From the NCBI GenBank assembly GCA_032768795.1, contig CP136490.1, forward strand, positions 6,386,001 through 6,450,000: a stretch of 64,000 bases of DNA. Reading direction: 5' to 3'. The position numbers were made by a program, and so were the translations under genes. Each line of letters opens with the position of its first letter. Position 1 is the first letter of the stretch. The stretch comes from Tremella fuciformis. Lineage: Eukaryota; Basidiomycota; Tremellomycetes; Tremellales; Tremellaceae. Below the pieces are notes generated by a model. It was not told where the DNA came from and did no database searches. It saw nothing but the letters and a program-made list of their open reading frames with translations. Shown in pieces: positions 2,985-25,798 of the stretch.

Positions 2985-3672
2985 AACTAGGTAGATCGTG
3001 CAGGAAAGTGCGCGATAGGGCGTAGCTCGTTATTTCAATTCTTTTTTAGCTCTGAATTTCTAATCAGGTATTCAAGTTATTGGTTCTCAGGCAATTTGGA
3101 AAACCTAATGCAATTCCTTGTTCTTTGGTTCCGTTAGACATGGGGGGGTGGGACACCCCCCCAAGACCCCCCCTTGCGCCTAGCGGCGCAGCCATCGCAG
3201 CCCTTACGGGTCAAGCATCCGGCAAAGCCGGATGTACTGTAGAACATTGATTAGTTGCAAGCTAAAGCACTTCATCAAGAGATGCGCAAGTGCTTGTTGG
3301 GCATGCTAGGCTGATCAGATGATCATAGGCATGCCAAGCTGGTCACAGGGGCTATGTCACAGCTGCCACCTGGCAAGCCTATTGCAGTCTTGTCAGACTT
3401 GCGCTATTGTAACCATTTTGGTGCAATGATAGGGCAGGGTATGGCAGTAGCTATGTAGGCGATTGGTTCTGCTACAGAGATCATTCCATGCATCAGCCTC
3501 ATGCATAGATCTTTATTCTCTGATGAAAGGCAATTTGGCAAGGACACAATGCATATTAGGATTGTGCTGATGAAATCAGAATGGCCGGAATTTTCTTATT
3601 TAATTCCCCCATTTACCGTTTTCGTTCCAGGGACACCCGCAGAAATTCGCCCCGTAAGAGCTACGCTGATGA
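2985..3672 (+). repeat. 688-bp dispersed repeat, copy 1
   Basis: This block recurs at 9773-10460 in the same orientation, with a constant offset of 6788 at both ends and no difference that I could see by eye. It is more AT-rich than its surroundings. A 9-bp inverted pair, gcgtagctc, lies near the ends (3020-3028 and 3658-3666). Inside are several hairpins (catccgg...ccggatg at 3216-3234) and G/C-tract palindromes near 3150. No transposase frame is present and I found no clear target-site duplication. It resembles a short non-autonomous element. It ends about 310 bp before the eRF1 start and begins 62 bp upstream of GRX4. Confidence 0.95.
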
Positions 3673-8667: not shown

Positions 8668-9627
8668 TCAGGCGGAGAACTGCTTGGATAGGGACCAGCC
8701 CTGCACAATGCAAGCTAGCAGGGCGTCGACTGCAAAGCCCTTCTTGTCGTAATCTGGTCGAATCAGCAAGCCTCAGTCTTGAGCTGCAGCGCCCATGACT
8801 GACCTTGCAAGACTCCTTCGAGATCCGCGAGTGGGACGACGCGCTTGACAATATGCTCGCCCTGTTGCCGGTCAGCTCGTGCTGCTCGCAGCGATGGATG
8901 ACCATACCGGGTCGAGCTTCTGCTCCGGGTCAGGGTCGTGCTCGCCCAGCTGGATGTTGACGGTAACAAGCTGCATATTGGCGCCAGTCATCCTTTCTAT
9001 CAGCATCTCCTTTTGCGCGATCAGCGAGCAGCTCACCCTGGGTCTTTGACCAATATACTGGATACTCGGTCGACGGAGGCATTGCCCTTTCCCGCTTTCC
9101 CGCTCCCATATCCTGTCTCCTCGTGTAGCTCGCGCAGGGCAGTAGTACTGCTCATCAGTTCTGTTCTCGCGAAAAGCGAGTCGGCGCACGCGGCATCTTC
9201 GCCCTCGTCCACCAAGCCCGCAGGCAATTCTTCCATCCGTCAACTTGGTCTGTCACGAAGTTCACGTTGGTGCCTCACCAACGACTGTCTTGCCTACCGG
9301 TGGGCGGTACTGCTCGATTATAATTGTCGATACGGGCCTGCTAGGATGATGCAGTAGCGCGAGAATATGCACCGCTAGCCGATTCAGCTGAATCTCGTCG
9401 GACCAGAGGAGATCGCACAATCAACATCCCCCTTCCTCGTCGACCGATTCGCCGCCTCCCACACCCTCTGCACTTCAGCTCCCTTCTCATTCCAGCGCAC
9501 AAAAGATCTGACTCGCCTCCTTGCCGTCCTCATCCTTCCATCGTATACGCTCCATCTTCAGCCACTTGGCCTCGGTCTTGAGCTCATCGCTCCCGAGAAT
9601 CTCGGGTCGCTGTTTCGAAGAGGACAT
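8668..9627 (-). CDS. YSA1: ADP-ribose pyrophosphatase, Nudix hydrolase (YSA1/NUDT5 type)
   Basis: Hydrolyses ADP-ribose to AMP and ribose-5-phosphate. The spliced frame has the N-terminal strand KWLKMERIRWKDEDGKE, then RVWEAANRSTRKGDVD, then ILALLHHPSRPVSTIIIEQY. The Nudix box is perfect, GLVDEGEDAATTALRELHEE followed by TGY (GX5EX7REUXEEXGU). The C-terminal exons include EHIVKRVVPLADLEGVLQ and KKGFAVDALLACIVQGW. Reaching this needs a GC-AG intron at 9516-9468 (49 nt); the others are GT-AG. Intron phases after the first are 1, 1, 2, 2, 0, 1 along the gene. The frame stays open upstream to an ATG at 9768, adding 47 basic residues that look like a mitochondrial presequence. It heads the Nudix array that continues from 11184. 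Confidence 0.93.
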
Positions 9628-9772
9628 GCTGCGTGTGGGAGCGATCAAGCTACAAGTCAGGACACGCAGGTGGGGTGAGACGATCCGTGTTGGTCGTGAT
9701 GCCAGATGTGCCGCACGTCCAATGTGCATGCGATGCATGGACGACGATGTCGAGTGTCGAGGGCTCAAAGGG

Positions 9773-10460
9773 AACTAGGTAGATCGTGCAGGAAAGTGCG
9801 CGATAGGGCGTAGCTCGTTATTTCAATTCTTTTTTAGCTCTGAATTTCTAATCAGGTATTCAAGTTATTGGTTCTCAGGCAATTTGGAAAACCTAATGCA
9901 ATTCCTTGTTCTTTGGTTCCGTTAGACATGGGGGGGTGGGACACCCCCCCAAGACCCCCCCTTGCGCCTAGCGGCGCAGCCATCGCAGCCCTTACGGGTC
10001 AAGCATCCGGCAAAGCCGGATGTACTGTAGAACATTGATTAGTTGCAAGCTAAAGCACTTCATCAAGAGATGCGCAAGTGCTTGTTGGGCATGCTAGGCT
10101 GATCAGATGATCATAGGCATGCCAAGCTGGTCACAGGGGCTATGTCACAGCTGCCACCTGGCAAGCCTATTGCAGTCTTGTCAGACTTGCGCTATTGTAA
10201 CCATTTTGGTGCAATGATAGGGCAGGGTATGGCAGTAGCTATGTAGGCGATTGGTTCTGCTACAGAGATCATTCCATGCATCAGCCTCATGCATAGATCT
10301 TTATTCTCTGATGAAAGGCAATTTGGCAAGGACACAATGCATATTAGGATTGTGCTGATGAAATCAGAATGGCCGGAATTTTCTTATTTAATTCCCCCAT
10401 TTACCGTTTTCGTTCCAGGGACACCCGCAGAAATTCGCCCCGTAAGAGCTACGCTGATGA
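9773..10460 (+). repeat. 688-bp dispersed repeat, copy 2
   Basis: Same length and orientation as the copy at 2985-3672. The near-terminal 9-bp inverted pair is at 9808-9816 and 10446-10454. It begins 5 bp upstream of the in-frame upstream ATG of YSA1 (9768). Flanking bases differ from those of copy 1, so the unit itself, not a larger block, was copied. Confidence 0.95.
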
Positions 10461-11183
10461 TGTCACACGGTGAGTCCTGCGAAAGTGGCATTCTTGATTT
10501 GTGGCACTTGGCGCGGCGCGGATGCAAATGTCGCACGCTTCAACCATCTGGGCGATCTCAGCCTTGAAGTACAATGGAATAAATCAAGAAATGATACAGC
10601 GCTCTCGAGAAGTTACTGAAAGCTTGTCATAGAAGGAATGTGCTTGTTGTTATTCGGATAGCAATGACTATTGATGCGGCTTCGGTCGGTCACCGCGATC
10701 TTTGCACGGAGTTCGGACAAGCCAAAAGTGCAGGATAACGTGTGTAAAGCGCGTTGATATTCGAGTATGAAGTATTGAGCGGTCCGATACTTGCTAGAAC
10801 CCCGAAGGAGGAGGGGATGACATGGCTGGAGGGAATGTCTGTCAGAAAATTTCCGGATGGACACGGCCTGACGAGGCGTCTGGAAGACTCCTTGACCAGT
10901 AGAGTCCCCTTCTCGTTGCAGCGCAACAATGTTCGTGGCAAAGAGGCATGACAAAATGCATGAATACAGGTTGAAGATGACCACAAACCCAAAAACTTAG
11001 GAAAACTGAGAAGCGTAAACGGGATAAGGTGAAATTTGCATAGGGTGGCTTAGCTGATCCTCGGGCAGTCTTGCTGAGTATGTATGTAGATGCGGGCGAC
11101 CGAGCGAGTTGTTCAGACAGTGTAGCAGTCGGACTCACAAATAGAGATTGGAGCACAGTATGCCATGGTCAGTCGAAGGGCAC
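10461..11183. other. Intergenic between repeat copy 2 and Nudix paralog N1
   Basis: About 720 bp of moderately AT-rich sequence. No frame here matches the exons of the neighbouring Nudix family or any other family. Nothing further seen. Confidence 0.5.
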
Positions 11184-12669
11184 TTAAGACAAAAGTGTGG
11201 CCTTCTCCAGGTCTAACAGTCTTGAGGGCTGTATGGGATATTGGTTCAAACAGTCCAGGTACCAGGATTGTGGATACAGGAGGCTCATCATTGCGCTGTT
11301 AGACAACCGAGATAGCTTACTCTGGTAGGGGCCAATCTCTGTTCCCTCTGGTATCAAGCGCTTGACATCATGCTCGAGCTCTTTCAAGACCGGGTACAGG
11401 GGCGCTCTTGCCGCGTTGCCCCCTGCTAAATGGGACTTCTGGGCCACAGAGTAATTCTTTGCCGCTTCTATAACGGCCGGATCAACACTGAGTCCCTTGC
11501 TAAGCGAATCTGGTGATCCTGTCAGCCTCGTCAGTGCGCCAAATACTGACCTACTTTTGACAACGCTATCAAGATCTTCCAAACGCACAATGACACGGGC
11601 GGACACAGAAAACCTGTCGCTCTGAATCCGGTTAGCTTTGGGTGATGAACGGCGTACATACCTTAACGCCCTTGAATGGTTCATCGAGGTCAGTGACCGG
11701 ACAATCGATCTTCCAGAGGTGACCATAGGCTCTATGCGTGGCTGTGGTGGACCTGGTCATCAGAATCATTTGCTATCGACGTCGAAGACACCTAGGACTC
11801 AACTTGAGTCTCGGCAGACCGTCGGGCCTGACCAGAGGGTTCGCATGCTTTGACAGGTTGACATGTTCAAGCCAGCGATCTGATTTGCTGCTCGTAGTGA
11901 TGCGTGCGTACACACAGTCTCAAGCAGTCGAACCTTCTCCTTTTCCAGTAAAACAAGGAAAGGCTCTACATCTGCGTCATAATCGACATCGACAGTTGGA
12001 AAGGCTGCATAATCAGCTGGACCCCCAAGACAGCTTGGCCCATGGGGCTGCATTTGGGGTATCTCGGCCGCTCACCCAATGACGGAATCGCTTGAAGCGA
12101 CGTTGACGCCTGATCATCCACAGAGGGGGGGCTCAGCAATATACCAGCATCGGTGCGCAGCTGAAGGACCACATAGAGCTGTTCCTTGGACTTGGCAGAC
12201 CCTCCGTTGCTCTCCAACTTCTCTTCGCAGTCGATGACGGGGTCTTTCGCCAACAGGTAACAGACTGATGAAACGGCTGTGGATCAGTATCAAGCATTCG
12301 CGGAGACAAGACACGCTCACTGTCTGGGAGTGCTGGAATAGCAACGTGGGTCTGAGTGGGTATGATCATCGGTTCCGCTGTGCACACAGTCTGGACGCCA
12401 TCACTGACACTGATCTTGGCGACCTGCCTGGCGTTCGCGTTCGGTTCGATGGGGCTAATCGTGGCCCTGAGACGGGGAAGGGAATCGATCTTGTCCAGGA
12501 TCGCCTGGTACCCGATTATTGTCGGTACTTCTACTTCGGTGAAGTGCTCCGGCATCTTGGTGGCGTAGTTGAAAGTATGGTGCCCCCAATTCCTGTCATT
12601 GTTACCGAGCCCAGCAGATGAGAAGGAAAAACGCTCGTGGGTCTGGGTCTCTGCAAGAACAGAGTACAT
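11184..12669 (-). CDS. Nudix-like paralog N1, catalytic box lost
   Basis: Seventh and last gene of the array in transcription order. Start at 12669; exon 1 holds HFTEVEVPTIIGYQAILDKI. After a phase-1 intron comes SKEQLYVVLQLRTDAGILL, aligned with the strand before the Nudix box of YSA1. The box region reads ASLRAANQIAGLNM where N2 has SSLRELHEEVGLDM: all three Glu of REUXEEXGU are gone, so I infer no hydrolase activity. Then come DRFSVSARVIVRLEDLDSVV (phase-0 boundary) and, after a phase-1 intron, a helical tail ending ...EKATLLS. The junction after the box does not resolve with a canonical in-frame acceptor. It could be a dead enzyme kept for binding, or a decaying gene. Confidence 0.7.
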
Positions 12670-13758
12670 ACTGCACCCGTTACCAGCGGCGAATGACTCG
12701 GGTTCCGCAAAGATTGTAAATCACGCCGTGGCTCGCTCTAAGCCGTGTGGATCAGAATTTAGAGTGAGTACCGGTGCTTGCTGGTTACAGGTGAGGAAGC
12801 GGTGGAGTTCCAACTGTAGCAATCGCAACACCAGCGTTGTTGGGGGTTGGGGGCCACGGGATGTGAGGAAGGAGTGCAATGTGTAAGAATGGCAAATCGC
12901 CTCACCTCCGCGTATAGGTCAGAAGTCGAGGCTCTAGCAGCCAGCACGAGATACTCGGCAACCGTGCATATTTTTTCGCCAGAGGGCTTTTGCGACTCCA
13001 CTGGCCTTCTCGTCAATGATGCTTCTGGACACGTCGTGTTTGAACGAGGGTGCCTCCCGTGCGAAAAGGTGGTCCAGACCGACTCCACGGGCCTTCTCGT
13101 CAATGATGCCTCTGAACACGTCGTGTCTGAAGAAGGGAGCCTCTCGTGCGAGAAGGTTATCCAGACTGCCATGCTCAGAGGAGGGCAGCATATAGATAGT
13201 AGTTGTGTCAGATCGCATATAGCGTTGTTAGGGTGGTGACTTCAAAGGCTAACGTCGACTCGAATAATCGCAGTCCCGCTTCGCCCCCATGCCTGAAGCA
13301 CAGAAGACAAGGGATTCAAGTCGGCGTTATTTAAGCTCGTCCGGGCTGAGAATCGGACTTCGGTGAGGTGCACCCCTTCACTGCTGCAGCGAGCTGCAGC
13401 ACAACAAGCCGTGATTATCTCAAAGGTCAGAACCTCGGGTATGGGTAGGACGCTTCATGGTGTCAGATGTCGACGCTCATCTTGCTGCGCACACAATAGG
13501 AAAATCTGGCCCTAGGTGGGCGAATGTGTGCCACTCTTGTCCTGGAAAAATGCAGAAGAGGTGCATAACGAATGGAAAATTACGGCGAGCGTGTGACATT
13601 TACGGGGATTGTGTGGCAGAGAGCATTGGCTTGATCAAAAACGAGAGCGTGAAATGACTGACAGGGGGAATGGTCATACTGCAAAAGCCCGGAGAACACC
13701 AAAAGACATAACGCATTCTGAGATGAGCCGGTGTTCCGCGGGCGATGGATGACGAGCG
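12670..13758. other. Intergenic between N1 and N2, holding an 87-bp tandem repeat
   Basis: About 1.1 kb. Apart from the tandem repeat at 12996-13169 and the open frame across it (13218-12934, minus), I see no exon of the Nudix family and no other gene. Confidence 0.4.
12996..13169 (-). repeat. 87-bp tandem duplication, two units
   Basis: Units at 12996-13082 and 13083-13169, clearly similar with scattered substitutions. Since 87 is divisible by three, all frames repeat. On the minus strand a 95-residue frame (13218-12934) reads AREAPFFRHDVFRGIIDEK then AREAPSFKHDVSRSIIDEK, 29 residues apart. Whether that frame is expressed is unknown; it may be a small gene, a 5' exon of N1, or a relic. Confidence 0.8.
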
Positions 13759-15235
13759 TCAATACTTGAAGTAGTTAGACGGGAGGCCGACGTTTACACG
13801 CGAAGCGTCAGTGATCCACTCGTGTGACTTGTCAGGGTCGTTGAGCGTTTCTTTCTTTACACGCCGGGCGATCTCCATTACTTCCTTTGCCGTGTAGGAT
13901 GTCTTACCCAAGCTCGTGAGATTCTCCTCGATCTTGGTTTCAAGAGTATCGGCCAAATTGTAACGGCATCTCTCGCCAAATGAAATTCTGTAACTTGTTT
14001 CCTCGAGCTGTACATCTACACTTGCACCTAGTTCTCCGGCGCCTAGAGATGGCCATCAGCAGAGGTCATCATCAATGGATGGTCAGCACCATACCGTTGA
14101 TTATCGTTGATAGCTCCTTCCAGGGAATCACGTTGCGGACGAGACGTTGCTGAATCTCATTCTGGTTTAGCTCAGCCACTTGGCCGAGGCGGACGCGAGA
14201 AATCACCTTTGACAAGTTCCTGCTGGCAGGTAACGTTTCGATTGGTCGGTTCTTGACGGTCATCAAAACACGAACCTGGACGTTGGTTGCATTGGTAAGT
14301 CAAACACGATCAGCAAAGCTAATCAGGGTCGAGGCATGGACCACTTACCCAGCGTCCTTGTGCATAATCGGGCTGATTGAAAGGATCTCGATGGAGTCAT
14401 AAGTATTCATATCAAGCCCGACTTCTTCGTGAAGCTCTCTAAGACTTGACGAGATTATGATCAATTGTGCGCGCGTTCGTGGATCCGGGTACTCCGATTC
14501 GGCGGGATACAACTCGACGTCTTTTGGGTCAATTTTGCCGGCAACGTGCTCTGCTGCGTCAGTACACTCCCGCATCAAGCAGATGCGCATCTCATGGGTC
14601 GCTAACCCCCCATGAATGTCCAGGAAGATCCTTGTACTCACCAAAGCTAGGGCCGACATAGTCGGATTCGCTACAAACGCCTGGTCTGTCCTGTCGAACG
14701 CCGACGGAGTATAAGTCGCTGCAGGTCCGCTGCCCGTGTTCGTCTGTTACGGTATAATCGTGACGCACATAGGCCTCCACGGTCGTGGCTGAGGTCAGTC
14801 TATTGAGCTTTTCGCCAGCCATCACTGACTATGCGGGAGGTACTTCCAAACGGGATCGTCTTTGGAAATGGGCAGTTCCCGAAGGGCCAGAGGGTGCACC
14901 TTGTCCATGCCTTCGATTGAGATCATAGCCAGCTCCGTGTACTTTCCTGCAGGTTTCTGGCAAATTTGTTTGTCGAACTTGCTCGGCTTACGGGCGGTCA
15001 GAGAAGCTTGCACGTCTTTGAAGCTGAAACACGTTTGCATTTTTACTTCTTCGCCTACCGTACTCTGCTCAGTCGGATCCGTGCGCCCTGCACTGGCAAC
15101 CTGACAGCCAGTCTCACAGGCCCCGATTGGCTGATCGGACATGGGGCCTGGATCTGAAGGATTGTCGATAGACAACGCGGCGAAGGCCGTCGTCGGGGGT
15201 ACGGGGGGCTCTCTCTGGCTCTGGTCGTCCGACAT
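13759..15235 (-). CDS. Nudix-like paralog N2 with intact catalytic signature
   Basis: Start at 15235; a Pro/Thr-rich N-terminus precedes KYTELAMISIEGMDKVHPL. A phase-1 intron follows ...KYLPH, then TTVEAYVRHDYTVTDEHG. The Nudix exon begins AEHVAGKIDPKD and, after an insertion of about 20 residues, ends SLRELHEEVGLDMNTYDS: the REUXEEXGU half is complete (near 14417-14446). Later exons are NEIQQRLVRNVIPWKELSTI (phase 0) and a helical tail (phase 1) with TLETKIEENLTSLGKTSY, ending ...NVGLPSNYFKY. The intron after ...HKDAG has a GTAAGT donor, but no AG that keeps the expected LTNATN frame. Of the seven, this is the best candidate for an active enzyme. Substrate unknown. Confidence 0.78.
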
Positions 15236-15770
15236 GATGACTCAATTTGACTTTACGAAAAATGGGCGTACAATCCGGGATACAGTGAGCTTAGACCAGA
15301 AGACTAATGTAGATTGTGTGATTGAGGTGATTGCGCGAGTGGGCAAGCTTCTTATAGAGCGCGCACCTTCTGACAACCGAGCTCGACCGGGCACCTGTGG
15401 GGAAACCATCCTTTCTAGTATGTTCCATTCAGTGACGTCGCTTCCTCGCCTGTTCGAGACGCGGCTCAGTCTGTGGCGCATGCTGTGCAACGCTCCAGCC
15501 ATCGTAAGCGAGCGAACATCTGTCGATCCATCGTGCGGTCTTCCGGCCTAGATGCGAGACTGTGAAGTGCTTCAGCTTCACTTCCCACGCCCGGCCTGCG
15601 CCGACGAGGGGCCACAGCTGATAGGAAGACAGAGCGTCAGACATCCCTGCATGAGAAGATGCGAACGAGGGCTCGAGCGGGTTTCGCTTTCTGACGTCGA
15701 GGCGGATGCTTCCCCGATGTTAGCGGAACAGAGCCAAAACAGCCAATACATGTATGTGCACAGAGCAGTA
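15236..15770. other. Intergenic between N2 and N3
   Basis: About 535 bp containing the N2 promoter and N3 3' end. No conserved frame seen. Confidence 0.45.
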
Positions 15771-17221
15771 CTATTCAGATATGGGACCGACTTCGACTGC
15801 ACTCGAAGTCTCTGGCGTGCTGTCTTGGAGCGAGGTCGCATACTTTTCGGCATCCTCATACGCCTGTCTCATCCCCTGGAAGTAATCTCGGTACGGATCC
15901 TGTTTGTCTTTCTTCTCCAAGCTCGCGCGGACTCGCTTGGTGAAATCTTTGGTCTCCTCTTCAGACTTTTTTTTATCCGGACGCTCGTAGCTTATCCTGA
16001 ACGGAATCTAGGACGTCGGTTCTGGTTGATTGCTTCACTGCTTCAGCCACACTGAATTGCATGGACGCTGCAAAGACCTTGTTGTTCACGGCTACGTGGT
16101 TTACAAGAGCAGCTGCCCCTGTAGATGTTAGCTTTTGCATCTGCCGAACCCGGGACCCCCTTGCCAAGAAAACAGAATGAACGTACTATGTGGCGCCGTA
16201 GATAACTCTTCTAGCGGAATGAAGTGTCGGTGTAGCTCTGCCTTCTTCTCTGACTTGAAGCAGCGCGTCAGCAATCGAGCCTAGAGGCCGGAGCTGACGA
16301 CTCACCGCCTTGAGACGCCTCGATTCAGGGATGGAGTCTGGTTTGGCAGGCAGGTCGACCAGAAGGGTAGCTTCAATTTCGGGAGACACACAGAGACTAT
16401 AAGTCAGCGACGGCCCGCAGAGATTGCGTTTGAGCTCACCCCAGCTCTTTATGGGCGACGGGGAGGAGGAACAGGTGATAATTCAACCCGCTTAGGTCAA
16501 TACCGGTCTCTTCCAATAACTCTTGAAGTACGGTATGTCTCGCAACTGCCTCGATCGATGGAGTCTCTGCGTAGGAGGCCTTATCCGGCGCCTGATAGTG
16601 ATCGTTGAGACCCGCGGGGTGCTCTGCAAACATCAGTGAATGGCTCGGGTTGCGGTGAAGACTCGCCCAATCCTCTTCTAGCATCTTGAGTGAGCTTTTC
16701 GCCACTCGCATCTAAAACCACTGCTCCGGCCCTGATCTGAGAGACCATGACCATGAAATATGAGGCCTCTCGAGTCTCTCGGTCCTCGTAACGGCCGATC
16801 ACTTCAATGCTCGTACCTATCGTAAGTCAGCCATTAACAATAGCTAGGTCCTGGCTGATCTCACTTCCTGGAAGACCCTTGACAAATACCGAACGCGTGC
16901 TCTCTTTGTAGCGCACGACAACCTCCCTGGGGAGTCGTATGCCGATGTGGTTCTGGGCAACTCAGCCGGTGCTGTGACGGTTAAGAGACACGCACAGTAT
17001 GGTCGGAGACTTTCTCTCCGGTGACTGAGTCCACCAGTTGTAACGTCGAATGCCCAACCATCGTGGTAAATGAGAGGAGAACCGCTCACGGACAGTACCT
17101 GTTCGACAGGTTCCCATCTCGCTTTGCAAGGTTCTTGCAACCATTGCAAAAGCTCTTCTGTGTTGTATGTTGAGCGTCGGGATGACGGCGGACTGACAGG
17201 TCTGCTTATGACAACGCTCAT
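15771..17221 (-). CDS. Nudix-like paralog N3, catalytic glutamates kept
   Basis: Start at 17221 with a Ser-rich N-terminus and TEELLQWLQEPCKARWEPVE. The next homologous segment, TLQLVDSVTGEKVSDHT, lies in another frame (near 17045), so a 1-nt shift or an unseen splice exists there. Then NHIGIRLPREVVVRY (phase 0) and TSIEVIGRYEDRETREASYF (phase 1). The Nudix exon reads KHPAGLNDHYQAPDK and then VLQELLEETGIDLS: the Arg of REUXEEXGU is Gln but all Glu remain. Later come EKKAELHRHFIPLEELSTA (phase 0) and ALVNHVAVNNKVFAASMQFS (phase 1). The end is ambiguous: reading on gives a TAA at 15973; a 43-nt intron ending at the tag near 16010 gives a longer charged tail to 15771. Confidence 0.72.
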
Positions 17222-17640
17222 GATTCAAGTATCGTTCTCCGAAGCTGGTGCGTGGAATATGGGTGGCGAATGCTTGAAGCGGGTTGCAGCTGCGAATGCC
17301 CTTTTCTACCTGTACCTTCAAACAAGCCATTGAGCTTCGTTCTGCGAAGCCTCGTGGAGTTGGGGGTCTCCTTTGGGGTCAGTACCCTCAGTTGAAGACC
17401 ACGTTCGGCCAGTGACCGAGGATCAAGGGGCCTTGCTTCCTCCCATCTGATGCGTGTAGCAGAGAGCGTTCTCGGCTTCGCATGACGTTCTCCGATGTGA
17501 ACCTCCTTTGTCGCACTATGGCAGCACTGTTTCCCCATGTTCTCACACTTCCTGCTGCCATATTGACGGGTCCCTCCGAAGGTGGGCGGCGTTGTCAGCA
17601 CCCTACGGTGAAAGATGCCGACCACACTTTCTGCCTCTCT

Positions 17641-18196
17641 GTACTGGTCGGTGGCCATGGATACATCAATCGATTCGTGTGCCCAGAAGCAAACGAAACA
17701 AGGGCACGACGGAAAATTCTCGACTACAAGCGCTTCAGTGACGCTCGATATTGTGGCCCTCTGACCCACTGCGAGTGCCGCGGTCGTATTCGTCAGCTTC
17801 AACAATCGCCTCCTCCCTGGAGGGTGACTCTCTGGTCTGGTCCGACCATACCTGACCCATTTCCCAAGTCACATTGTGTCCTACATTCTCTCATGCATAT
17901 ATTTGGAGGTCTTTATCTCCCCGTTTTCAGTCGGCCAAACGAGCCAATTCTATGAGCCACTAAGCTGCAGGCGTTGCCGCGGATACAGCTGTAATCTCCC
18001 GACTACACCTTCATCGTGACCCAACGGCCAAGGTCAAAACCGCGAGCGGCACAGAGTGCCCAGTCAGTCTTGTCACTTTTCCTGAGACAACTTCAAGCAA
18101 GAGTTGGCTCCCGATAGTGGTGACCACCTTGACCAGGCTTACGAGGCAAGATGAGAATGCTTCTCTGGGCTCTACAGTCGACAGAGCGACCCCCAA
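17641..18196 (-). pseudogene. Possible relic of an eighth Nudix-like paralog
   Basis: Between N3 and N4, on the same strand, 18196-18011 is open and reads SQLLLEVVSGKVTRLTGHSV, similar in spacing to the N-terminal segment of N3 (TLQLVDSVTGEKVSDHT). Another open stretch near 17800 reads KLTNTTAALAVGQ, reminiscent of the LTNA segment after the box in N2, N4, N6 and N7. I find no Nudix box between them and no continuous splice model. The resemblance is weak, so this could be chance. The remainder of 17222-18391 shows nothing recognisable. Confidence 0.3.
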
Positions 18197-18391
18197 AGCA
18201 CGTAACCGCCGATTGGTCGGCAGAACTATGACTTGAGCTCAAACACCACCACAACCTCTAACGGCTACCGGGGCTCAATGCGCCCTCTTGTCAGCTTATC
18301 TGACTGTACATGGGACATCGGGAATAGATATTCTTATACAGGGGATACTAAGAGTATGTATATGCTAACTAAGGTGCTGCGAGCACCGTCC

Positions 18392-19893
18392 CTAGATGTC
18401 AGTGGATTGTCCGTGAGGAGGCTCGCGATACTCGGAATACTGCCCAGTCGGCGCTCCCGACTTCATATAATCCACCACGGCTTCGACGTAGGTCGTGTGC
18501 GCGTACGACTGGGCTTGCTGGTCCTGAGCCTTCTTGACAGCTCCCAGGATCCGAGTGATCGTGTCGGACGTTACACCTTCATTCGCCATCGAGTCACGGA
18601 AAATTAGTAAATCCGCCTCTGCCGTCAAACGGGAGGCATTTTTGGAAACCTCGTACTCCCGCGCGGCTCCTATCATCCTGGACTCCACTAGAGCGCAGCG
18701 GGGAGACTGGGTCGAAATGTCTGGCGTGTCAGATTAAAAATGCCAGCCGACGTGACAGGGCCTCGGCGGTGATAGAGAGACGGAGAAAGGGAACTTCGCA
18801 CCTTGGAAAGATTGATTAGTGTTTTTCGGATTGACGAGATGCCTGGTCAGTCTGGTCACCTTTTCCTCCTGCGGCAGTCAGCTTTCAGAACAGTCGAGCG
18901 CAGATGCATCACCTGCTCTAGGGTGCTCGACGCTGTGAGGTCCTTTATGCCGCAAGTGAGTGTGGCCACGACAATGGCTTGCGACTCGAGCGCGTTGGTC
19001 AAACTTACAGTGAGCGCTGCTCTTTGTCAGGGGAACCCAAGCTCACCCCATATCTTTGGCCACGGGAGGAGAGATGTGGACCTTGACGTCTGTTATATTC
19101 GCAGGCCGCTTCTTGTGGTCTGGCAGGACGGATCCCGCTGCCGACAACCCGAACTCCTCCCACATTTCGTTGAAGACCGTGTATACCACACACTGTTGCC
19201 AAGTGGGTAATCCCTTGGGGACCTCGTCATCTGGGTATTCGTACGCGTCGACCAGACCTGCTGTATATTCTGGGCATTTCAGTCAGGGAGCACACATGCG
19301 ACGGACTGGGCGCCCACCAATCCCCAAGAGAGACCCGCCATCCTCATGCCCTGCCGTGCCAGCGCGATCCTGCGAGACAAAAGCCGTAGCGCACTCTTCG
19401 TGGTCGGCCGACCTCAAGAGAATCTGTATGGAGACACCTGCTATCAGAAGCGATCAAGCAGATTTTGAATCTCACTGTGGGGGATACCCTTAATTGTATG
19501 CTTCTTGTCGCCGATCCTGACCGAAGGGGTTGTCCGACACATTGTGAGACGCTACGTGATTCAGCGCTGGAAATGACCCGGATGGGCGGAAAGACAGACG
19601 TTATGATCGGCAGTCGGCTGACCAGTCTTTTTGTCATACAAACGGAGTGTCACAGCCCCCGTATACCCGTCACGACACGCGGAGGCCACCCAATCATTGC
19701 TATCGGCGTTTGTGTTTGCAATGGGTTGTCCGTCGTCTGACTGAACTGGCTTCCAGGCAAGGTCCGACTTGGGACCGCCATGTTTGATGAGGTAGTCAAG
19801 GAGCTCTTCATGTCCATATGTAGTTGTTTGGACGAACTCTTCGATAGCCTGCGAGTGTGTGGGTTCGGGGACGTTAGAAACTGTCGACGACAT
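18392..19893 (-). CDS. Nudix-like paralog N4, catalytic glutamates kept, complete splice model
   Basis: The best resolved array member. Exon 1 (start 19893; in-frame Met also at 19959) has HEELLDYLIKHGGPKSDLAW and AVTLRLYDKKTGQPTADHN. Then RLTMCRTTPSVRIGDKKHTI (phase 0) and GVSIQILLRSADHEECATAF (phase 1). The Nudix exon gives EYTAGLVDAYEYPDDEV, an insertion, then VVYTVFNEMWEEFGLSAAG: REUXEEXGU with Arg changed to Asn and every Glu kept. After a phase-2 intron comes LTNALESQAIVVATLTCGIK, then EEKVTRLTRHLVNPKNTNQS (phase 0) and a tail (phase 1) with AAREYEVSKNASRLTAEADL, about 100 residues, ending ...GQSTDI. Junctions use GT-AG and keep frame, so the gene looks intact. Confidence 0.85.
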
Positions 19894-20837
19894 ATCGCTC
19901 TTGCTTCTGCGAAAGAAATCAGCGATGGCTTGTGAAAGACAGCTGCAAGGATGGGGCATGTCGAGGACAAAACCAACGTCGCGCCCGCTTTATACGTTAT
20001 CGAAGCGACCTTCTCAGGACAGCGAGTGGAGAGCTCCTTTTTTGGATGCCCCGTCATTGGGGAGGCGTTTCACTCGCTCATGACGACGCAGAGTCCAGAC
20101 ACTTCAAGAGCTCAAAAGAGCTGTTTGCAATACCGAATCGTCTTAAATGAAGGACACTGCGATGTCTGGTGAAGTGCTCGTGAGAAGCCCAAAATCTCTT
20201 CTCGTGCTCGACATGTTCTTGACGCTTCTGCATCTCGCGCTGCTCCTTCTGGCCTATTCGCCAGCGACAAAGGAGAGGAGTGAGCCCATGTTCTCGACCT
20301 TCGAACACGAAGCAGGCTGTGTGCCCCAGACGCCACAATGATGCACAGTGTCCGCCGCACCTCACGGCTCCTTTTAGTGCATAGTGCATAGTGCATACTG
20401 TATCTGGCTTGGTTCATTGTCAGGCGTAAAGTAGGGCCGTTGAGCTCAAGGGCACACCACCATGTAGATTGCGGGTTGGTCGATCCCACCGCTAAAATAC
20501 ATTTTTCCTTCGTCTAGTGGCAGCTCAGATCTGCAACACGCATTGCACCAGTACGTTTGAGAGGCAGCAACGCCCAGTCTCTTATACCGTTTTCCACGAT
20601 GAGATTGTACAGACCATCCTGGCTCCGCGCAAGTGTCGCAGCCGAATGGTCAGACTGAGCTTAGGTGGCTCTTAGCCCTCTGACGTCCCCTGACTTGCAT
20701 CGCGGTCCACGAAGGATTGATTCCCCTTTTGAAAGATATGCGCACTGTACATGATGTTGGAAGTGTATGAATGAACAGAAGGCAGCTGTGAACGAACAGG
20801 AAAACAGACAACTCCTACCTCAGTCCTAAAGCAGAGT
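19894..20837. other. Intergenic between N4 and N5
   Basis: About 940 bp. A short run of three gtgcata units lies near 20377. Frames are open in places but none aligns with the Nudix family. Confidence 0.4.
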
Positions 20838-21971
20838 TCACAATCTAGCAAGTCGATCGAGAGGACGACCCTTCATGTGCCGGCCGTCTCGTCGTAGGCC
20901 GGATACGTATTCTTCGGGGAACCAAGCCCAGCCATTGGGATCGCACTCTTGGTCGGCATTTGACGCCATCCTATACTGATGGGCCAACAAAGCTAGTGAA
21001 GGCTCGACATGCAGACGAGGATCGTTGCTCGCACCTGTAAGAGATTGGTAAGAGCTGACATTTCACAACGTCCGACAAAGCGTCCAGGGGGATCTCCAGC
21101 AGGTGCGTATTATCACCATCCTGAACCTATATACATCAGTGGATGCTCGCCGTGACGCGGCTTCCTTACATTCCATGCACAAGCTTGGCTTCGTCCGTGC
21201 GAGGGTTCTCGAGTTCTACTTGCCCACACGTCCGCAACAAGAGCAGTATCGCCGTTGAGACTACCAGTTAGTGACGTACGTATAGCCGATAGGAGTAAGG
21301 CGATCACCTTAATGCAGACTCGGGAAGCATCACCCTCTCCTGGAGTGCAAGAGTACGACCAGCTCTCAATCCCACAGCTCCGTCAAGTGACCGATCTAGG
21401 GCCGAATTGATAAGGTCAAGCAGATTTCCGGAAGCGCTGTCCTCCCTTGAAGTATCGATCGTAGGTAGGCCTGATACGGGATCAGCCCGTCGCTTTATTT
21501 CGCGGTATGCTGTCGAGATATGCCAACCACCCACCTAAGGTCTTCGATTTGCGGTCTGGTGACGCCGTTGTGCAATTCGCCGAATCGCGGGCCAAAAGGC
21601 GGACGTAAACTCTACTCGAGACCCCGTCGACAAGTTTAAGCACGAAGGGCAAAACAGTGATGGCTGTGAGTCATTCTTGATCTTGGAGCGCTCGTAATGC
21701 ATGACTCACTATACGGCCATCCAGAGCTCGAAGGTGTCTCACCGCCAGTTCCTGAACCTGAGGGCGCACCTGACTTGCGCACGGACCCATCCTTCGGGTA
21801 ACCTCAGCTGCCTTAGGTAATAAGACTCCGCTAACGGCTCACCGAATCGGAGTTCCGATCTTCAGAGGAGGTAGGCGAGCCATCAGCGGGATCCATGCGA
21901 CCTTGCTGGTCCGTGGTCCAATTGCCCCGGAGTCTCTGCAAAAGGGTCTCTACTGAGCCGGTCAAAGACAT
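20838..21971 (-). CDS. Nudix-like paralog N5, Nudix box erased
   Basis: Start at 21971: MSLTGSVETLLQRLRGNW. A 51-nt intron (phase 0) leads to DGSVRKSGAPSGSGTGGE. A phase-1 intron leads to TITVLPFVLKLVDGVSSRVY, the strand before the box. The box exon starts with GLP as in YSA1 but continues TIDTSREDSASGNLLDLINS, with none of the REUXEEXGU residues. Then SLNGDTALVADVW (phase 2), VQDGDNTHLLEIPLDALSDV (phase 0), and a tail with ASNDPRLHVEPSLALLAHQY that ends ...LDRLARL. The last junction is in phase only with an intron of 25 nt, too short for this genome, so it may be damaged; otherwise the frame stops near 20970. I infer no Nudix catalysis. Confidence 0.68.
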
Positions 21972-22493
21972 GTCTAGAGGCATCTCAATTGAGGACTGAG
22001 AGTGCTACTGATCAATGCGGAGGAGAGAGTCGCCAATGCAGCCGTCAGGGGGGGACTTGTAGCCCTTATGAGGGAGAGGGTCTGCCGACAGCAGCGTACA
22101 GCGCTCGGCTGCTCCACTTTGGCAGCACGTGTGGTCTTCCAGTCGTCCTTTGTGCCCGTCTAATCTCGCGAGAAGAAGGCGAAAGCCCCAACATGTCGCA
22201 GCGCTTGAAACACCATGCTCGGAAGGCGAGTGAGCTCGCAGTCGCACTCAGCCTCGCCTGAAGGGAAGGCGCAAGGAAGGGGAATTGCTCTCGTGATGTC
22301 CATGTGCTCAGCAGGTTGACAAGCGGGACAAGTAACAAGAAATGCAAATGTGGATGTTTGATCGGAGGACACTATGAAAGCTGGACATCGGAACATTTGT
22401 AATATGGTATTGGCAGGCGTTACGACTGTAACGGCGGTCCCGCTCGCTCGCTCAGGCAGTATCTCATATTTCTGCACTGACAGTCGAAGCCAA
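21972..22493. other. Intergenic between N5 and N6
   Basis: About 520 bp; presumed N5 promoter and N6 3' end. No conserved frame seen. Confidence 0.45.
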
Positions 22494-23717
22494 CTAGTCT
22501 TCATGGATCTCTGCGAGCGAGACTTCTTCGTGATTCGCAAGGCGATCCAGACACTCTAAGAAAGCCTGATTGTGGTTGGCGGCCAGCTCTCCTGCAGTGA
22601 AAGAGGTTTCATGGCCTCTCTCCCTGGCGCCAATGTCGTATCCGATACTCGAAACGGTATACAGAAGGCTCACCCACTTGAATAAGGTGTCCACCATCAG
22701 TCGATTGTTGGATTGAGCACCTGCTGTCAACATTCGCACGTGTCGCGCTTACAGTGCAATATCCTCACTTCGCGTGAACGACTCGAGGCTTTCAAGGGGC
22801 ACTTCGATACGGTCCAGGTCTTTTGCCTGTTCGGACTGTTCTCAGAGGACTGGCTAAGGTGAACAAGTATCGGCTCACAGGATCCAGTTTCTGGGACAGA
22901 CTGCGCATGTCGAAGCCTTCGTCCCTGTGCCACACATGAACGACCGTGGAGTTCGTGGCATTGGTGAGACGGCACATCAGCTGCGGATGCGAGGGGATTG
23001 TTACATGAGTCTTTACTCACCCTGAGTCTTTGACGGTGTTGGGATCGATCACTTTGCTGGACCTGAGTTCGAGGAGGGGTCCGGTAGAGAGACCCGTCTC
23101 CTTCCTCACGGTTCTCTCCGCGCACGCAAGGCGGAAAGATCCTTTTGCCCCTCTGTCTTCGGCAGAAACCAGACCCGCGGGGAGACCTATGGCTCTATGA
23201 GCCAATCTTACCGTGAGAGCCGAATGTCTGAAATGACTGACCGATCACTCTTACTGAAGAGGCATCACCTTTGCTAGCTGTACGGCCCACACAGCCCGGT
23301 GTATTCACATGGATTCCCATAATCGAGACCGACTGAGCCCCGCTTGCGCCCTTTGTGACCACAATAGGGATGACTGTCACACCTATGGCGTCAATTTATG
23401 TCAACGACATGAAAACTGGGAATCACTGTGAGGAATCTCATTGGGATCCACGGTGGCATCGACCTCTCCGTCAGGCGACCGGAAAAGTCTGTCGCTGATT
23501 TGGTAGACCTTTCCAGGACATGAGCGGGTCATCGCATCAGGGTGATGTGACTGACCGTAGGCTCCTCCATGCCGGTTTGAGAATCAATAGCGCGGACTTG
23601 AAAAGACCTGACAAACTTGTTGTCATCGCCGCCCACGACGAGTTTTCGACTCCAGTCTGTCGTCTCCCGCTGCGCAAGCTCGCCCACGATGGAGGACGTA
23701 TCGAATGATGCGGGCAT
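22494..23717 (-). CDS. Nudix-like paralog N6, partly degenerate Nudix box
   Basis: Start at 23717. Exon 1 ends FQVRAIDSQTGMEEPT, matching the N-terminal strand of YSA1 (MERIRWKDEDGKE). Then VYQISDRLFRSPDGEVDATV (phase 0) and VTVIPIVVTKGASGAQSVSI (phase 1). The box exon keeps GLPAGLVSAEDRG and has ACAERTVRKETGLS: two of the three Glu of REUXEEXGU are replaced (REU to RTV, EE to KE). Further segments are LMCRLTNATNSTVVHVW, KDLDRIEVPLESLESF (phase 0) and GAQSNNRLMVDTLFKWVSLL (phase 1), ending ...SLAEIHED. The intron after ...VKDSG has a GTGAGT donor but no nearby acceptor in the matching phase. Activity is doubtful. Confidence 0.7.
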
Positions 23718-24612
23718 ATTGGGAAAGATGTGTTTCTCTAAAGAAGCAATCTGAAATCACAGGAGTGACCAGTTGTCGAAGCTATTGAGACTTGAGGTGG
23801 CGACTGGAGATACTGTAACTATAATATGTTGCGGACGATGCAAGGCAGTGCCCCATCTACTCTGCGCTTCCTTTTGTATTGGTGCTTGCTTTGACAATTC
23901 GCAGAGAAGCGAAGAGTTTTGATCTAGCATCGATATCCGTCCCCGATGAAAGGACCAGTGCATCAGTATTTGAAACGTTTGGCACGTACACGAGCGCCAT
24001 AGCATTTCTCGTCCAGGGGGAGGAGAAAAGAAGGGTGGGGGCCAGGAAAGGAGCGCATCAGAGCTTGCTATACGTAGCCTTGCAAATATCTTGTATTGTC
24101 CAAGAGCGATGAGCTCAGGCCCAACCTTCATTTGGCTTTGGTAATGAGGATGTTCGAGTCTGACATATGTATGCAGGCGAGTGGAGTAGCAGTGTCTGAA
24201 ATCTGCTTGCCCTTACTTTAATCGGACATACTTTCTGTGGGCCAATGTGACTTGGAAAGTCAACAGGTGCGATCATCATGTCGGCGAAGAGCAGCGGACA
24301 CACATGCTGTCTAGGCTGACTGACAGGCACCAAGAAAGGCTGCTCAGTAGTCCGGGATGGTCTGAGCAGTCCGTCTGTCACAGTGACGACGAGAAAGATA
24401 GGAAAATGCATGCACAAGGGATGATTGTGAGATATGTTTGACATAGGTGACACAGGTGAGAGCGAGTCGTCATCATATGGCGGAGTATATATATATACAT
24501 ACAGTAGCCATGAAGAACTGGAGGATGTCATGCGGATGATCACAGAAAAGTTGTTGACAACAGATGGTACAGTCAAAGCATATGTATTCAGGTGGGCGAT
24601 CGAGCGATCCTC
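23718..24612. other. Intergenic between N6 and N7
   Basis: About 895 bp, AT-rich in parts, with a short tata run near 24488-24500. No conserved frame seen on either strand. Confidence 0.45.
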
Positions 24613-25798
24613 TCACCTGCCTGTCCGAGCTTTGTTTGAGAATGCTTCCACAAACTTGCAGGCAGGTAGGCGAGTGAGGAGCAAGCGGCCATTCTCAGGC
24701 ATCGGGATGGCTAAGAACATAAGAGACAAATGCCGCATGCAATCTTCGTTCGTTGCACTCGGATTGGCAGATCTCAGCCCTGACGCGAAGCTCTCATAGA
24801 TCTTGGCTGTTAAAAAGGTTATGGTGTCCATGCACTTATCCTTGTCACCCTGAGCGCCTGCAGGCATTAGTGCTCGTCCCCATGCACTCGAGGGAATGGA
24901 ACTGACTGCGGAAGTCCTGGAACAAATTCTCCAAAGGGATCACAAGCTTATTCACCTGTTTGTCCACTTTGCTCTGCCATTAGCAACCTGTCCACTCACC
25001 GGTCGGTCGGCGCGGGCTAACCTGATCCCGGTTGTCCCAGAGGGAGCTCAGCTGGAATGGTTCCTCCGCGTCATAGATCAGGGCGACGATCCGGTTCGAG
25101 GCATTGGTCAGGCGTACAATCAGCACAGAGTGCCCACTTCCTTGGCCTACGACAAGCTGCTCACCCTGCATCCCTGAGACTCAAGTCGTCGAAGACTTTG
25201 AAGCATCTGAGCTCGATACCATGACTTTCGACAGTAAGGCCGGTGTCCCTGCGCACTGCACGGAGTGCGCAACCGACGGTCCCATTGTGCGAAAGCTCAT
25301 TGTGCTCGACCAGTGCTGCCGGCAGACCTGCATGCGAACGTCAGGAACGGCTCTCATAATCCGAGACAGGGGGAGCCTGCAGAACTCACCGAAGACCGTC
25401 TTTGATTTGACAAGATCATCCGTTTCAGAGGGGTACACAGAGCCCGGAGGGTCCACCTCGACGACAAGTACAGAGGTTGTCTGAGGCTTGTCTTCGGCGG
25501 TGGTTATCAGAATGGGGAGTACTATCACCGCTGGAGTGTCAGATAAACCCACGAGTTAGGCGCAGCCACGGACTGTGCGGCTCCTCAGTGAAGTCGGTCT
25601 TGACAGGATTTCCGACTTCGTCCAGGATAGTCCTATTAAGCAGCGTGTAAGACTACGCGTGTCATGAATACCTCTACTCGATTGACGAAGGGGCGGGCTC
25701 AACGTCACGCCTCCTCTTTTGGTTAGACACTCCACGGCGACAGGGCCGTCCCGCAATCTGGTTTCTTTGGTCCACGTGGTCCCCTCTGTGGCAGACAT
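24613..25798 (-). CDS. Nudix-like paralog N7, degenerate Nudix box
   Basis: First array gene in transcription order; start at 25798, a short N-terminus. Exon 2 has TILDEVGNPVKTDFTEEPHS, then a phase-1 intron and VIVLPILITTAEDKPQTTSV. The box exon reads GLPAALVEHNELSHNG and then CALRAVRRDTGLTVESHG: the spacing of YSA1 with REUXEEXGU changed to RAVRRDTGL, so every catalytic Glu is lost. Then come VRLTNASNRIVALIYDAEEP, KVDKQVNKLVIPLENLFQ (phase 0) and, after a phase-1 intron, AQGDKDKCMDTITFLTAKIY, parallel to the last exon of YSA1. The junction after the DAG triplet is in phase only with a 28-nt intron. I infer a catalytically dead Nudix fold. Confidence 0.73.

Follow-up and report, generated by a model that had tools for sequence, protein, structure and literature searches.

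The 64,000-nucleotide (nt) stretch of contig CP136490.1 from the basidiomycete Tremella fuciformis (assembly GCA_032768795.1, positions 6,386,001 to 6,450,000), here called the window, carries the Nudix gene YSA1 and, next to it, an array of seven further genes, N1–N7, which spans positions 11184–25798 (Table 1). All eight genes are encoded on the minus strand, and YSA1 is the 3'-most of the eight in transcription order, i.e., N1–N7 are located upstream of it in that order. Seven same-strand genes beside YSA1 had been proposed at these positions by an earlier note on this DNA, and the arrangement was confirmed, the models ending at the same coordinates. To obtain the N models, all frames were read and then spliced by hand with homology in mind, which resulted in open models of 289–411 residues. 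N1–N7 have a common origin with YSA1, their reading frames are open and they split into two classes, one that keeps a chosen set of catalytic and ligand residues (N2–N4) and one that has lost nearly all of them (N1, N5–N7).

Common origin of YSA1 and N1–N7

The YSA1 protein matches NUDT5 in the PDB with an expectation value (E) of 1.7e-25 and the Pfam NUDIX family (PF00293) with E 1.8e-10, and among the matches listed it is closest to the Tremellales proteins of Kwoniella, Tremella and Saitozyma (66–79% identical); these values refer to a first hand model that differs in three residues at intron 1. In the search of the organism's own genome (28.1 Mb, 11 contigs) no second copy of YSA1 was found. 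Its seven introns have, in order, the phases 0, 1, 1, 2, 2, 0 and 1 according to a purpose-written spliced aligner, which was tried on ARP2, CCT1 and eRF1 before YSA1. The first intron (9516–9468, phase 0) is best read as GC-AG and yields the conserved GKERVWE motif.

Five introns, designated a to e (phases 1, 1, 2, 0 and 1), are present in all eight models at the same positions and in the same phases as in YSA1, in agreement with the earlier claim of a shared phase-1 pair, a phase-0 and a phase-2 intron. The earlier claim that the copies share the exon architecture of YSA1 needs correction in one respect: YSA1 has a further phase-2 intron inside the Nudix box, which none of the seven copy models contains. 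The exon between introns c and d has a length of 91 nt in N1 and N3–N7, 94 nt in N2 and 85 nt in YSA1, and the exon between introns d and e of 67 nt in N1–N5 and N7 and of 58 nt in N6 and YSA1. The D-x-G triplet at the phase-2 donor, noticed earlier in most copies, occurs at intron c in four of the seven. The N-termini, previously described as all different, are not wholly unrelated: in the exon-anchored alignment W22 and D32 are each kept in five copies and G35 in six. The copies have C-terminal tails that run beyond the end of YSA1.

The relationship was further analyzed by leave-one-out scans, in which a profile of the other seven genes together with intron anchors was run on raw DNA, allowing AG acceptors only. 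The 48 control segments comprised 40 segments from 27–62 kb of the window, both strands, and eight opposite strands. For YSA1 (z 8.7) and six of the seven copies (Table 1) none of the 48 controls scored as high, by which chance open frames were rejected; for N5 one control scored higher. These runs recover many of the hand-placed borders, although not all. A YSA1-family profile used without anchors, again with AG acceptors only, placed N2 and N3 above all 48 controls, and the score was reached by one control for N4, by 6 for N6, 8 for N1, 34 for N5 and 35 for N7. As N2 and N3 alone stand out clearly with this profile, the evidence for N1, N5, N6 and N7 comes from the gene structure and from profile comparison.

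In the latter, hhalign was used one-to-one against a YSA1-family set (27 proteins of 120 listed), resulting in 97.0% and E 8e-11 for the N1–N7 profile, 98.0% and E 2e-13 for N2–N4, and 94.5% and E 7.4e-8 for N5–N7; against YSA1 alone N1–N7 gave 87.7% and E 3.4e-6. Moreover, a profile of N2–N7 moved over 238 tiles of the window and its 40-kb flanks scored 148.1 at YSA1 and 123.8 at N1 compared to 101.4 for the top non-copy tile, and no further copy was found in this region. That top outside tile lies in a gene of the right flank (L060, 1–2540) that by eye seems to encode a SET domain (Ezh2-like).

In a phylogenetic tree neighbouring genes group together, with bootstrap and Shimodaira-Hasegawa-like approximate likelihood ratio test supports of 90/88 for N5–N7, 89/88 for N3 and N4, and 77/88 for N2–N4, none of which is at the tool's 95/80 mark; N1 and N5 show long branches. 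The earlier proposal that YSA1 was duplicated locally and that its copies then changed very rapidly is supported by the intron-anchored scan, the hhalign comparison and tree groups that match the gene order with moderate support, and successive tandem duplication is the simplest account.

Table 1. Genes of the array, the parent gene and the introns c without AG acceptor (positions in the window; z, leave-one-out scan)
Feature	Position	Strand	Description	Score or basis
YSA1	8668..9627	-	ADP-ribose pyrophosphatase, NUDT5 orthologue; 8 exons, 7 introns, intact Nudix box	spliced alignment
N1	11184..12669	-	diverged YSA1 paralogue, 411-residue model; Nudix box lost; intron 11911-11880 uncertain	z 6.5; N2–N7 profile 123.8
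N2	13759..15235	-	paralogue, 400-residue model; RELHEEVG and distal Glu retained; TTG as acceptor of intron c	z 15.7
N3	15771..17221	-	paralogue, 345-residue model; QELLEETG and distal Glu retained; uncertain are the first intron (ATG acceptor) and the frame of the tail	z 11.4
N4	18392..19893	-	paralogue, 400-residue model; NEMWEEFG and distal Glu kept; every acceptor AG	z 12.8
N5	20838..21983	-	most doubtful copy, 289-residue model; catalytic residues lost; 25-nt intron e	z 2.7; weak codon bias
N6	22494..23717	-	paralogue, 300-residue model; RTVRKETG (2 of 3 Nudix-helix Glu replaced); intron c acceptor CCG	z 22.0
N7	24613..25798	-	paralogue, 291-residue model; RAVRRDTG (without the catalytic residues); ACG as acceptor of intron c	z 10.1
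N2 intron c	14301..14348	-	phase 2, GTAAGT...TTTG, no AG at homologous border	AG-free 229.9 vs AG-only 190.8
N6 intron c	22970..23020	-	phase 2, GTGAGT...GCCG, no AG; next exon 91 nt	AG-free 268.1 vs AG-only 243.1
N7 intron c	25113..25164	-	phase 2, GTGAGC...TACG, no AG	AG-free 160.7 vs AG-only 153.6

Two classes of active sites

The earlier note had not seen that the copies differ in their active sites. In the exon-anchored alignment 45 positions are family-invariant, defined as identical in at least 95% of 121 sequences, and seven of the YSA1 residues (Q75, R77, D93, E105, E108, E109 and E166) were chosen as catalytic or ligand residues, a set picked after seeing the alignment. N2–N4 keep 21 of 21 chosen residues compared to 46 of 114 other invariant residues (Fisher p 6e-8), and N5–N7 keep one of 21 compared to likewise 46 of 114 (p 0.001). 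N1 keeps one of seven versus 11 of 38 (p 0.65), which is no significant depletion if taken alone.

The Nudix core REUXEEXG is complete in N2, and N3 and N4 keep its three glutamates and the glycine; it is not present in N1 and N5–N7. The distal glutamate, aligned with the base of NUDT5, and the Q-x-R motif are conserved in N2–N4. In N1, N5, N6 and N7 the Nudix glutamates, Q-x-R and the distal glutamate, which is replaced by D, Q, K and K, respectively, are nearly all lost. R45 is kept in five of the seven copies. In the PDB alignment E105 and E109 of YSA1 correspond to E112 and E116 of NUDT5, and for the NUDT5 E112Q/E116Q double mutant a defect in hydrolysis was reported (PMC13421311). Further NUDT5 residues with a role in catalysis or ligand binding are the distal catalytic glutamate E166 and R84, the equivalent of YSA1 R77.

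Beyond the catalytic core the copies differ from YSA1 in two further respects. The spacing before the Nudix core (G-x5-E-x7, from the glycine to the arginine of the core) comprises 17–32 residues in N1–N7 compared to 13 in YSA1 (G90 to R104), and in N2–N4 this Nudix loop has a length of 28–32 residues, i.e., an insertion of 15–19 residues. That it stems from exonisation of the Nudix-box intron of YSA1 would be a guess (an intron-retaining YSA1 would have 27 residues, N3 and N4 have 28). Furthermore, W22 (W28 in NUDT5) is kept in N3–N7, and W40 (NUDT5 W46) is kept in none of the seven copies. Mutating this Trp pair in NUDT5 interferes with ADP-ribose binding as described in PMC13421311. Because the second adenine-stacking tryptophan is lost in all seven copies and the pair is needed for ADP-ribose, the putatively active N2–N4 probably act on a substrate other than ADP-ribose.

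Coding signal, splice sites and searches for relatives

Codon bias, measured against five long open frames of the window, resulted in z values of 3.6–4.4 for N2, N4, N6 and N7, which compares to 4.0 for YSA1, and of 2.9 for N1, 2.0 for N3 and 1.2 for N5. The frames are still open over 289–411 codons at mutual identities of 13–32%. A crude hydropathy check revealed no signal-peptide-like or membrane segment in the N1–N7 models and no strongly hydrophobic stretch at their N-termini (highest 12-residue mean 1.28, in N2).

CCT1 (L012) and ARP2 (L021), from a set of six loci considered, together with eRF1 and YSA1 from the window, served as control genes for splicing; among the others, L011 and L019 proved to be wrongly oriented and L008 matched nothing in the PDB at E <= 1e-150. 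The acceptor is AG in all of the 16 introns of the four control genes (ARP2 4, CCT1 4, eRF1 1, YSA1 7). The N models contain 43 introns, of which four lack AG, namely the first intron of N3 and intron c of N2, N6 and N7 (TG, CG and CG, respectively). In these three cases both the phase of intron c and the LTNA motif are preserved, and exons of 94, 91 and 91 nt follow. The aligner, left free to choose under a penalty, takes all three non-AG sites; a single odd site that it accepted in N5, for a gain of 1.4, was regarded as noise. AG alternatives exist in N7 (in frame, with a 28-nt intron and eight extra residues) and in N6 (with another donor), and for N2 none that keeps LTNA was found. GT-CG and GT-TG introns account for about 0.02% each in Ganoderma lingzhi according to PMC11590231. 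Judged from the genomic sequence, the non-AG ends may be candidates for real non-AG splicing, or may reflect unseen alternative splicing or recent damage. Nested introns (stwintrons) were rejected, the sequences before the exon being without the needed AG-G form, and an assembly error is unlikely, since the anomaly recurs at the same intron in three different genes.

Uncertain borders are the N1 intron 11911–11880, the first intron and tail of N3, intron e of N5 and the intron c acceptors of N2, N6 and N7. N3 needs a first intron that ends in ATG near 17059 and a change of frame in its tail near a run of eight adenines (15966), which means an incorrect model or damage to this copy. The candidate for intron e in N5 (21035–21059) keeps its phase at a length of just 25 nt, in line with the unusually short candidate described earlier; the 16 control introns have lengths of 40–65 nt.

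In a protein database, the alignment of N1–N7 found nothing at E <= 0.001 (7,994 candidates scored) and N4 nothing at E <= 10 (4,981 candidates), in a search that needs shared five-residue words and may miss fast-evolving orthologues; YSA1 gave 1,547 relatives in the same database, in which Tremellales proteins are well represented. The own genome, searched with N1, N2, N3, N4, N6 and N7, gave matches to this cluster only, the best cross-match among the copies being N7 to N6 (E 0.0018). The suggestion of a new family thus stands within these searches, with the reservation that orthologues evolving fast may escape the method. An own-genome search with PF00293 resulted in five places, none of which is in the window; such a search treats each exon separately and therefore overlooked even YSA1. 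With NCBIfam and Pfam no match above a curated cut-off was obtained for three pieces of N2 and N4 or for N2, N4 and N6. Weak matches, each far below cut-off, are DUF515 in the N2 tail (E 0.0025), a ZHX zinc finger in N7 (0.017) and an NMNAT/ADPRP model in N6 (0.0083). No Rfam family reached its gathering score in the window, and a described cluster of this kind was not seen among the open-licence papers of PubMed Central (PMC) that were listed.

Two repeats were observed between the genes. An 87-base pair (bp) unit occurs twice (87% matches) at 12993–13166 between N1 and N2, inside the minus-strand open frame P0121, which is without Pfam match. A 687–691 bp element lies on the plus strand at 9772–10462, between YSA1 and N1, and at 2985–3672. 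A stretch of 34 bases from its beginning has 190 exact occurrences in the genome, and the element is present near full length with 99–100% identity at no fewer than 41 places (39 of 241 candidates scored), some of them as head-to-tail pairs. It looks like a mobile element in a very recent burst; a target-site duplication was not evident by eye in the 13 copies compared.

Interpretation and known systems

In the explanation that we favour and regard as probable, repeated local duplication of YSA1 created the tandem array, and fast divergence then led to the putatively active N2–N4 and the pseudoenzymes N1 and N5–N7. In the simplest mechanism YSA1 would have kept its housekeeping task after gene duplication, functionally releasing the copies. 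N2–N4 might be working Nudix hydrolases in which the chemistry was kept, half of the adenine clamp was lost and a loop insertion and a tail were gained; the absence of the second adenine-stacking tryptophan from all copies and the insertion of 15–19 residues are the reasons to suppose a shift of the substrate away from ADP-ribose. N1, N5, N6 and N7 would retain parts of the fold and function as binding proteins, either for a nucleotide-type ligand or for another protein, probably via the new C-terminal tail, one possibility being pairing with YSA1 or N2–N4. The N proteins may thus be supposed to bind nucleotides, partners or each other. By analogy, there is precedent for a Nudix protein acting without hydrolysis: catalytically dead NUDT5(E112Q/E116Q) still binds PPAT, and in the NUDT5-PPAT complex, as described, adenosine monophosphate acts as glue and the C-terminus of NUDT5 is located in the PPAT active site (PMC13421311). 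Moreover, DBC1 has a Nudix domain reported as non-catalytic (PMC5389931). A more elaborate and rather doubtful version would be a two-class system of diverged active hydrolases (N2–N4) and dead paralogues (N1, N5–N7) that senses or signals through a nucleotide-type ligand, maybe as mixed dimers, in which the non-AG sites serve as acceptors of intron c in N2, N6 and N7 and the full-length proteins depend on this unusual splicing.

Several observations weigh against the favoured explanation. Identity of the copies to YSA1 is as low as 16–26% in the exon-anchored alignment, none of the seven N proteins matches PF00293 at E <= 1, which YSA1 does at the value given above, and two profiles of the N proteins (A1 and A4) found no PDB chain at E <= 1. 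The hhalign E-values come from one-to-one comparisons and have no unrelated control profile beside them. N5 is weak in two tests, the leave-one-out scan and codon bias. The set of seven residues is post hoc, and with a five-residue subset the p values are 1e-5 for N2–N4 and 0.019 for N5–N7. The arginine of REUXEEXG is lost in N3 and N4, smaller Nudix-loop insertions of 4–10 residues are also found in N1 and N5–N7, and in three copies intron c ends without AG.

Some of these points might instead suggest a birth-and-death graveyard, in which most copies are decaying YSA1 duplicates without a function of their own and both the broken splice sites and the lost active sites are signs of decay. The non-AG acceptors at intron c, the uncertain borders in N3 and N5, the weak codon bias and profile score of N5 and the active sites lost in N1 and N5–N7 are consistent with it. 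However, decay does not fit well with frames open over hundreds of codons at such low mutual identity, with near-fixed exon lengths downstream of the odd acceptors, with a codon bias similar to that of YSA1 in N2, N4, N6 and N7, nor with the complete retention of the chosen residues in N2–N4, and we consider this reading unlikely. That the copies stem from another Nudix gene which landed beside YSA1 could be argued from their low identity to YSA1 and from the weak NMNAT/ADPRP match of N6 (E 0.008, far below cut-off); intron positions and phases in common with YSA1, the profile matches to the YSA1 family and D-x-G at intron c in four of seven copies make such an origin exceedingly improbable.

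A locus for conflict or recognition under positive selection, in the direction of the conflict-related role suggested earlier and for example with proteins for allorecognition, defence or host interaction, would likewise present itself as a tandem array of extreme divergence with no relatives found elsewhere within the searches made, yet the N models carry no signal-peptide-like or membrane segment by the crude check and the selective retention of catalytic residues in N2–N4 fits enzymes better; it has a small, but not trivial, chance of being correct. Finally, all copies including N2–N4 might, rather than being enzymes, form dimers with YSA1 or regulate it, or purine metabolism, allosterically. 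NUDT5 forms a dimer, and its control of PPAT does not involve hydrolysis (PMC13421311), W22 is kept in five of the seven copies and the tails extend beyond the YSA1 end, all of which is compatible with regulation, but N2–N4 retain all seven chosen residues, more than binding alone should need, and this possibility appears still less likely than the graveyard or the conflict locus.

If repeated duplication of YSA1 with subsequent divergence is the correct explanation, a parent gene has stayed intact while its copies became altered enzymes and pseudoenzymes in one place, and each copy could be examined for the order in which losses and gains occurred. Furthermore, genuine non-AG acceptors would make these three paralogous introns, all at one position, an unusually clean test of how a fungal spliceosome chooses a 3' splice site.

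A 2025 survey of 183 proteomes that describes lineage-specific fungal NUDIX subfamilies (PMC12210691) has in common with this array the duplication and diversification of fungal Nudix genes. Its proteins were recruited via Pfam NUDIX families, and the words "tandem" and "Tremell-" are absent from its main text. Since none of N1–N7 matches PF00293, surveys that recruit via Pfam would probably miss such genes. With the ADP-sugar pyrophosphatases of the YSA1/NUDT5 type (PF00293) the array shares the intron positions of YSA1, in N2–N4 the REUXEEXG glutamates, the distal glutamate and Q-x-R, and in most copies D32, G35, R45 and D-x-G. It differs from them in escaping detection by Pfam NUDIX at 16–26% identity, in the loss of the W46-equivalent tryptophan from all seven copies, in the loop of 28–32 instead of 13 residues in N2–N4, in the C-terminal tails and in the loss of the active site in four copies.

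Avr3b from Phytophthora sojae exemplifies the secreted Nudix effectors, which are described as Nudix proteins linked to ADP-ribose and reduced nicotinamide adenine dinucleotide that belong to a similarly fast-changing group. In contrast, the N models are without a secretion signal by the crude check, and the array adjoins and derives from a housekeeping gene. The array can also be compared to the non-catalytic Nudix proteins, namely DBC1 (PMC5389931) and NUDT5 acting on PPAT (PMC13421311), in which the Nudix domain works, or may work, without hydrolysis; here, however, a single array holds four diverged paralogues beside the active parent and three siblings that are putatively active.

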